Part shown: positions 161-1,624 of the stretch, one piece after another
Layout: each line of letters opens with the position of its first letter
Numbering within the stretch: the first letter of the stretch is position 1
NCBI GenBank assembly: GCA_017303975.1
Contig: JAFLBG010000002.1
Location: 1-64,000, forward strand
DNA from: Bacteroidota bacterium
GTDB lineage: Bacteria > Bacteroidota > Bacteroidia > JAFLBG01
Direction: 5' to 3'
Length of the DNA: 64,000 nt
The notes under the pieces: generated by a model
Seen by the model: the letters and a program-made list of their open reading frames with translations, nothing else
Told to the model about the DNA's origin: nothing
Databases searched by the model: none
Translations under genes and position numbers: made by a program

Positions 161-349
161 CCCTTAACGTTTTGCGGGCTTGTGCAGTAGCGGATTCAAA
201 GCGACTACTTGTCCCGAGTGATAAAGTTAAATAAATGCACCACTGTTCACAAGGCTTGCAGAAAAAAGATGCGGGGCGTCAGCCCCACATTAATCATTGC
301 AAGCCTTACTTGCACAAAACCCGCTATTGCACAAGCCTGCTGTTATGCC
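161..349 (-). other. attC-like recombination site (integron-cassette 3' end)
   Basis: Read on the minus strand, the stop codon of the HEPN gene (TAA at 358-356) is followed by GGCATAAC (349-342), a long folded region, and GTTAAGGG (168-161). The outer arms at 174-193 and 321-340 are complementary at 18 of 20 positions. Inside them lie a perfect 10-bp inverted repeat (251-260 with 297-306) and a GGGGC/GCCCC hairpin (273-286). R''/R' boxes flanking an imperfect inverted repeat directly downstream of a gene are the architecture of integron attC sites. The site is long for an attC, and no integron integrase is in the window. Confidence 0.6.
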
Positions 350-355
350 TTGTTT

Positions 356-925
356 TTATCCGGTCTGCCTTATCCAGTCTCTGATGTTCATTCCAATCCG
401 TTCAATGTCGGCTCTTGAAACAATGCCACCATGCATTATTATATTTCTCGATCGTTCTAGTGTCCCAAGTACCGATTTCGACCATTCCATATCCGTCAAT
501 AGGTCTTCAAACAATTCCCAATTTGTGACAATAATTGATGAGAGGTCTCCAAAATCACAATACATAATTTGTTCTCCGCCTCTACTACCATGCCATCTAA
601 ACTTGAGATCATCTTCTTGCCTAGTTTTAACTTTTTTCTGTATTCTATCGGGTACTTTCTCCCACCACTTTTCTTGATACTTTTCCGCTAGTGCTGCCTT
701 TACTAAATTTCGAACTGAATTCTCAAATGCGTGAAGAGCAATATATACAACAGACATTTTTCTGGCTTCTTGAATATTATCTTTGTCAAGCATTTCGAAT
801 GAGAGTGCCTTCATTAAGGCATACTCTTCTTCCTTTCCAAAATTGGATAGTTTTCGTCTACCAACTTTGTCGAGGCTTTCTTCAGTCAGTACACCTCTAA
901 AAATAAAATTATATAAGTCGTCCAT
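356..925 (-). CDS. Swt1-family HEPN domain protein
   Basis: A 189-residue all-helical protein. Residues 160-165 read RNIIMH, giving the Rx4H motif of HEPN RNase domains, and residues 68-72 (ENSVR) fit the first conserved helix of the Swt1-like HEPN group. HEPN proteins are commonly metal-independent RNases in toxin-antitoxin and abortive-infection systems; the role here is inferred from the fold. Its ATG overlaps the stop of the upstream DUF5343 gene (TAATG on the minus strand), so translation is probably coupled. The attC-like site follows directly. No other catalytic domain is visible, so an RNA-binding or non-catalytic role is possible. Confidence 0.7.
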   Translation of the reverse strand: MDDLYNFIFRGVLTEESLDKVGRRKLSNFGKEEEYALMKALSFEMLDKDNIQEARKMSVVYIALHAFENSVRNLVKAALAEKYQEKWWEKVPDRIQKKVKTRQEDDLKFRWHGSRGGEQIMYCDFGDLSSIIVTNWELFEDLLTDMEWSKSVLGTLERSRNIIMHGGIVSRADIERIGMNIRDWIRQTG

Positions 926-1572
926 TATCCAAGATGATCTCTAAGACTTTTGAAAATTGCATCATAAATTGCTTGATCTCTCGTCTCGGGTAGTACAATA
1001 TTAATATGGTACTGTAATCCTTGTAATTTTATTTTTTTATGAATGCCAGAACTTTGTTCCTCTGCCTTGTCTTTCAATTCGGAGTTTTGTTGTTCCTGTT
1101 CCTCTTCCTTCTCCTTTTCAACTTTCTTTCTCACTTCAGGTTTGCTAGATTCAAAATCTGCTAATTCACATAGGCCCGAAAAACTTTTAGCAATTAATTT
1201 TACTAGGTTGTCCTTCTTTGAGCCAGCATATAAAGTTCTTAGTTTATTATATGCTTCATCAGAAGTCATTTTGTTCGCATCTTTTTTTATTGCAAACAAA
1301 TCTGAAAACATTTCTCGAATGCCTTCAGCTAATACCCTTGGTGCGGCAGCTTTGTCTAAATATTCGTAATATCTTTTTGTAGGAACATTGTTACTGTCTA
1401 GAAAGCCAAGCTCTCTAAGTATCCCAACTAGAGCTCTGTCATTCGTACTTTTGAACTCAAGATTCTCCAAAAATTTTACTGAAAATCTTTCAGGAGGTTC
1501 TGCGCCTTGAATGGCGTCAAAGTATGCTGCAAATGAGCCATACTTTACTGTGTAACTATCTGGTAAAGCCAT
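925..1572 (-). CDS. DUF5343 domain protein, partner of the HEPN gene
   Basis: A 215-residue protein. Residues 1-130 follow the DUF5343 pattern: MALPDSY start, a segment PPERFSVKFLENL, then LRELGFLDSNNVPTKRYYEY. A highly charged Glu/Lys/Gln linker, probably coiled coil, covers about 143-172. A conserved-looking tail has INIVLPETRDQAIYDAIF near the end. DUF5343 has no established biochemical function that I know of; the first part looks like winged-helix DNA-binding folds (inference). It is the first gene of a two-gene unit with one-base stop/start overlap to the HEPN gene, so it may neutralise, recruit or sense for that protein. Confidence 0.7.
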   Translation of the reverse strand: MALPDSYTVKYGSFAAYFDAIQGAEPPERFSVKFLENLEFKSTNDRALVGILRELGFLDSNNVPTKRYYEYLDKAAAPRVLAEGIREMFSDLFAIKKDANKMTSDEAYNKLRTLYAGSKKDNLVKLIAKSFSGLCELADFESSKPEVRKKVEKEKEEEQEQQNSELKDKAEEQSSGIHKKIKLQGLQYHINIVLPETRDQAIYDAIFKSLRDHLG

Positions 1573-1607
1573 TTAATTTATATTTAATTGTTAGTTTTTA
1601 ATTCTTT

Positions 1608-1624
1608 TAAAAATAAGGCATAAC
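1608..1624 (-). repeat. cassette 5' boundary, inverted copy of 342-358
   Basis: On the minus strand this reads GTTATGCCTTATTTTTA. The plus strand at 342-358 reads GTTATGCCTTGTTTTTA, 16 of 17 identical, so the two genes sit between inverted repeats. In an integron cassette the 5' end carries the outer part of R', which after excision pairs with R'' of the same cassette. Here GTTATGCC is the exact complement of GGCATAAC, as expected for a cassette starting at 1623. Confidence 0.55.

Follow-up and report, generated by a model that had tools for sequence, protein, structure and literature searches.

A two-gene candidate defense module borne as a probable gene cassette of an integron-type gene-capture system of Bacteroidota

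The described systems closest to the locus analyzed here are the classical integrons (IntI / attI / attC), the clusters of attC lacking integrase (CALIN), and the XerA-type recombinases (NCBIfam NF040815, 'site-specific tyrosine recombinase/integron integrase'). For Bacteroidetes, the IntegronFinder 2.0 paper (PMC9024848) mentions an earlier survey that found only elements with an integrase and no attC, and then one complete integron, that of Salinibacter ruber. In PMC2426708, only integrases with the additional domain of IntI were kept, and PMC8138268 regards the IntI insertion as indispensable to the working of integrons. A Bacteroidota integron without IntI is not described in the searched passages of PMC9024848, PMC8618304, PMC9668308, PMC2426708, and PMC8138268. 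Our literature search returned no description of such an integron either; one may exist in subscription papers or preprints.

The window, that is, the whole stretch of 64,000 nucleotides of Bacteroidota DNA analyzed here, had been given an initial annotation as carrying a solitary integron-cassette-like unit with two genes. The coordinates and letters of this unit proved correct when re-read in the sequence. The following features were distinguished:

1624-168, minus strand: complete cassette, starting with GTTATGCCTT (1624), with two genes and its own folded site, and ending at G|TT
1572-925, minus strand: DUF5343 gene, PDC-M34A, 215 aa (Pfam PF17278, 8.3e-39; PADLOC PDC-M34A, 4.1e-72)
925-356, minus strand: HEPN (Swt1-like) gene, PDC-M34B, 189 aa (Pfam PF18731, 7.1e-14; PADLOC PDC-M34B, 3.7e-73)
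349-162, minus strand: attC-like folded recombination site, with the R'' box AAGGCATAAC at 351-342 and, after a ~180-base hairpin, the G|TT junction (168-166)
168-127, minus strand: probable remnant of the 5' part of the following cassette, starting with GTTAAGGGCAATGC, judged from its fit to GTTRnnnGCAA
1-126, plus strand: 3' end of what we take, from the transposase tail DYNFKRPHQSLNNKTPMEFLQHI, to be an IS3-type insertion sequence, at an assembly break (100% identical to the beginning of contig C45)
1637-1625, minus strand: attI-type site GGGGTATAAACGA| directly before the cassette, with no recombinase gene beside it; top GTT in the window by the attI matrix
1641-1688: perfect 48-base palindrome before attI, between a patatin-like gene and attI

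We consider the unit to be, with a probability of roughly 0.9, a gene cassette of an integron-type gene-capture system of Bacteroidota. The DUF5343 ORF (1572-925) and the HEPN ORF (925-356) overlap by one base on the minus strand. On the same strand, the folded site has GGCATAAC at its 5' side (349-342) and GTTAAGGG at its 3' side (168-161), and the left boundary of the cassette reads GTTATGCC (1624-1617, minus strand). The complementarity of the cassette start to the cassette end, already pointed out in the initial annotation, stretches to 10 bases (GTTATGCCTT / AAGGCATAAC), and the two boxes agree at 7/7 variable bases. On either strand, the fold is stronger than those of dinucleotide-shuffled sequences (z of -3.9 and -4.4; 0/200 shuffles as good). 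The site has the attC-type architecture of an imperfect hairpin with R'' and R' boxes, the R' of the cassette end being inherited at the start. As in classical integrons, the folded sites end in AAC...GTT, the boundary lies at G|TT, and each cassette holds its own R'.

Only one whole cassette remains within the window. No second site was found there with the covariance model R1 (see below) and no recombinase remnant by tblastn, as the initial annotation had stated for attC and integrase; the lack of a recombinase beside the cassette counts against our main reading, and so does the lack of an empty copy of this exact site, the order containing no genome other than this one. 'Solitary' was not supported: GTTAAGGGCAATGC conforms to GTTRnnnGCAA, the start of many array cassettes, and probably begins a further cassette into which the IS3 end cuts after ~40 bases. 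The single unit would then be merely what is left, because the next cassette is apparently broken by the IS3 end (1-126). The left flank GGGTATAAACGA is an attI-type site rather than arbitrary sequence. Hairpins also precede many recombinase-adjacent attI sites, as the palindrome at 1641-1688 precedes that of the window. The window thus holds an orphan attI followed by one whole cassette and the apparent start of another, cut by the IS3 end at the contig break. It resembles a CALIN in having a cassette without a neighboring integrase and differs from one in keeping an attI-type site and in the placement of its sites outside the classical attC family.

BLAST with the window fold on 396 Bacteroidota genomes gave short matches in 16, repeating one layout (AAC, stem, CCGCTACT.., GTT) directly 3' of unrelated genes. 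The covariance model R1 was built from 11 copies of the fold; the window site, itself a member of this training set, scores 99.7 bits at 162-344. R1 matches were found in 176/396 Bacteroidota genomes and 105/172 genera (E<=1e-3; up to eight candidates per genome scored, genome set drawn evenly) and in 0/150 genomes of another phylum. In an alignment of 117 distinct sites fitted to the R1 model, which favors pairing figures, standard pairs filled 93.9% of the paired cells vs 55.2% in shuffled data, and double changes numbered 631 vs 193; the pairing signal collapsed when the alignment was slid by one column. The window site belongs to a covarying site family. The other folded sites of its own genome were missed by BLAST and detected only by the covariance model, and BLAST of the window site against plasmids gave no match. 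Contigs C8 and C59 of this genome end exactly at attC-like sites. Such repeats therefore interrupt assembly, and counts of arrays from draft genomes are probably too low.

The site family is not the classical one. The classical attC model R2, made from nine sites, finds classical arrays; it gave no match in the window or in the array on contig C6 of the same genome, and R1 gave none in classical arrays. The identification of the site as a classical attC was rejected, as R1 and R2 do not cross-detect. The refuting conditions set in the initial annotation do not apply in their original form: the classical attC model gave no match, but the site belongs to a different Bacteroidota family, whose own recombinase and attI occur in the source genome (contigs C6 and C3). 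The unit could still be a cassette mobilized by a classical IntI and stranded at a secondary site, given that it has the general cassette anatomy, that the same two genes occur in IntI arrays elsewhere, and that IntI occurs frequently in the phylum outside this class (105/396 genomes). We find this very unlikely: the search for intI elsewhere in the genome, also suggested initially, gave none over the TIGR02249 cutoff, a single IntI was seen among same-class genomes, the models separate the sites as described, and the cassette boundary is the attI of a non-IntI recombinase.

Unlike in classical integrons, the R boxes of the Bacteroidota sites are long (about 9-11 bp) and cassette-specific. R1 sites stand in one-direction arrays. 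A cassette once closed as a circle at its own site must carry a start box complementary to its own end box and not to the next junction. Such complementarity (>=6/7 bases) was found in 74/89 consecutive pairs, with a random expectation of 2.9% (binomial, 4e-98), whereas the control, the cassette end against the following junction, was complementary in only 5/112. The exceptions mostly arise where a very short unit, missed by R1, lies in between. These pairs and the 7/7 agreement in the window strongly support both the integron-cassette-like reading and the excision logic of the initial annotation, in which the cassette's own R' is restored. At the level of sequence, the cassette boundaries and the R''/R' inheritance were established, as was the covariation of the fold.

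The C6 array comprises 14 cassettes, all with matching boxes as assessed by eye. In agreement with the functional definition of an integron, one-direction cassettes each with an own site occur in this array and in those of many genomes. The view that two genes in one cassette are unusual was not supported, since cassettes of the same genome appear multi-gene; such cassettes are apparently common in Bacteroidota, unlike in classical integrons. In the cargo of the C6 array (G000:C6:93514-129906, L083-L085), a streptomycin adenylyltransferase-type gene forms a cassette by itself. Also encoded are a transpeptidase/glyoxalase protein and, apparently inside 8-kb multi-gene cassettes, an RND efflux set and a type I restriction system accompanied by an OLD-type nuclease. 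The very long C6 cassettes (8 kb) may hide undetected sites. An Rfam DUF805b RNA motif lies close to a cassette start (L084:12584-12618). Very short cassettes (GTTGAAGAAGAATTCGCTCC..., GTTCAGCAAGATTCGC...) recur after many sites (L091/L092 in G038, L017/L102 in G390) and look like gene-less miniature cassettes.

The enzyme at the head of the C6 array is a tyrosine recombinase of 374 aa (92344-93465), and the array begins 48 bp 3' of its gene. Relatives were found in 116/396 Bacteroidota genomes (1e-40); the array recombinases were collected through their similarity to a single array-head enzyme, and related Xer-like enzymes may do other jobs, a point against our main reading. In 40 recombinase-centered regions, 99/100 R1 sites were downstream on the same strand, usually beginning 0.5-2 kb from the recombinase. 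At least one R1 site was present in 33/40 of these regions, and its absence from the other 7/40 speaks against our main reading; the control, 20 random 20-kb regions (400 kb), contained one. The Bacteroidota recombinase is often co-directional with its array, unlike in classical integrons, while a second group of 20 recombinase regions showed the canonical divergent layout where sites existed. At L093 in G198, an array has several additional copies of Xer-like recombinases within it or close by.

The catalytic set R, K, H, R, H, Y was complete in 61/62 array enzymes, one being truncated. The K-to-H spacing was 64-70 residues vs 106 in 11 IntI, and the IntI-specific insert was absent from all 61 measurable array enzymes. 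IntI with the additional domain was found neither in the source genome, over the TIGR02249 cutoff, nor among the array enzymes. IntI rows formed a separate clade in the tree, obtained by a quick search with SH-aLRT only and few Xer references. The array recombinase scored over the cutoff for NF040815 (232 bits vs 220) and under that for TIGR02249; its predicted fold (pLDDT 86) matched XerA/IntI-type folds, with XerA and Xer-like enzymes as the best PDB relatives. By these sequence criteria, the array-head recombinase is not IntI. It shares core homology with XerA-type recombinases and differs from them in heading cassette arrays and in extra N-terminal domain(s). About 27 array recombinases have an N-terminal extension whose pattern 'FPYDeeL..VK.LPGarWS..kkcWYiP' recalls HARP/DUF5710 (weak Pfam matches, DUF5710 1e-4 and HARP 0.16), a label that we treat as a lead from sequence; the frequent HARP/DUF5710-like N-domain and the missing IntI insert both set the Bacteroidota enzyme apart from the classical integrase. 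Two or three copies of this domain precede the recombinase core in L164, L165, L169, and L172.

The array-head recombinase would, from its sequence and position, catalyze the cassette reaction. Another enzyme might move the cassettes, the tyrosine recombinase merely living beside the arrays: its role is assigned from sequence, and some sites occur in genomes without a match to it at 1e-40. Such genomes may, however, have a more distant enzyme, have lost theirs, or have imported their cassettes, and the linkage of recombinase and array is tight and directional across many genera, with attI just behind the recombinase gene. We regard this alternative as unlikely.

The gap between the recombinase stop and the first cassette is 44-130 bp in most regions and contains the shared sequence GCATATAAACGA|GTT. 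In about 25 regions, the attI consensus, ..TATAAACGA|GTT, follows the recombinase gene; there, in agreement with the functional definition of an integron, attI lies beside the integrase gene as the insertion point. With classical integrons the system shares one-direction cassettes, attI, and a tyrosine recombinase heading the array. An attI matrix made from 24 recombinase-adjacent sites of other genomes ranked the window boundary 1624 first of 2,365 GTTs (12.05 vs 9.26 bits). The placement of the cassette at a random secondary site was rejected on this ranking. The C6 attI of the own genome does not fit the matrix (-5.0), which counts against our main reading. Contigs C3 and C40 of the source genome share 148/150 of the bases preceding the junction, beyond which their cassettes differ; on C40, 47 residues of a recombinase remain, with 89% identity to that of C3. 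The related genome pairs G084/G290 and G052/G173 likewise switch at GTT. Sequence comparison thus established that recombinase, attI, and array are linked and that cassettes are replaced precisely at attI|GTT.

An RNA element (regulator or terminator) after the genes, with the array order incidental, would likewise give strong paired covariation, and the fold does stand at gene 3' ends. Such an RNA leaves the start/end complementarity across units of 1-8 kb unexplained, together with the recombinase and attI at the array head and the replacement exactly at GTT, and no Rfam family fits the fold: Rfam searches gave only chance matches to the palindrome and other low-scoring matches in the window, and no attC-type family in the arrays. 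We therefore consider the RNA explanation extremely improbable.

The cargo corresponds to the PADLOC candidate defense system PDC-M34. Both proteins match the A and B models over their full length, and the M34A gene adjoins the M34B gene; here the system is borne as a Bacteroidota-type cassette. The DUF5343 + HEPN pair is conserved in 18 other genomes from many phyla (HEPN 46-83% identical), in at least six of which it lies between or beside classical attC sites. A true IntI was present in 6/7 checked genomes having the pair near such sites and, by coordinates, heads the same array as the pair in L036 and L047. The HEPN protein has the catalytic-type motif RNIIMH, in agreement with Rx4-6H; R160 and H165 do not vary among 19 homologues, and all four fixed positions of RNxxMH (R, N, M, and H) are conserved without exception. 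A fold search with DUF5343 found no PDB relative. By analogy with HEPN modules in general, the predicted HEPN ribonuclease may be restrained by, or triggered through, its DUF5343 partner, and the cargo would have a defense role.

Returning to the gene-cassette reading, we propose that the XerA-like tyrosine recombinase at the array heads (C6 and C3) would excise cassettes at G|TT of the attC-like sites, the single-stranded fold being the probable substrate. The free circle would bear a site with perfectly complementary R'' and R' boxes and would be re-inserted by the recombinase at attI (..TATAAACGA|GTT), 44-130 bp behind its own gene. In the window, re-insertion would have taken place at an attI left without a recombinase, delivering a two-gene candidate defense system (DUF5343 and a HEPN ribonuclease-type protein). 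Of the initial annotation, the cassette and its excision logic stood, while its solitary state and the rarity of two-gene cassettes were not supported.

The system is widespread in Bacteroidota and appears to use a recombinase and sites different from those of classical integrons: in at least 176/396 sampled genomes, a cassette site of another kind occurs, in arrays that follow a recombinase lacking the IntI insert. Because recombinase and sites differ, it escapes the standard integron models. PDC-M34 defense modules occur as cargo of both integron kinds, and the C6 cargo (streptomycin adenylyltransferase-type, RND efflux, type I restriction) bears on the spread of such genes. If the system works, folded-site cassette capture can do without IntI. 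We would give even odds to a broader hypothesis, that Bacteroidota have a second, phylum-wide integron system which arose from XerA-like recombinases independently of IntI, and in which recognition of the folded site falls to an N-terminal HARP-like junction/ssDNA-binding domain instead of the IntI insert. If this is true, a second integron system of the Bacteroidota would be overlooked by surveys that demand classical attC models or the IntI insert.
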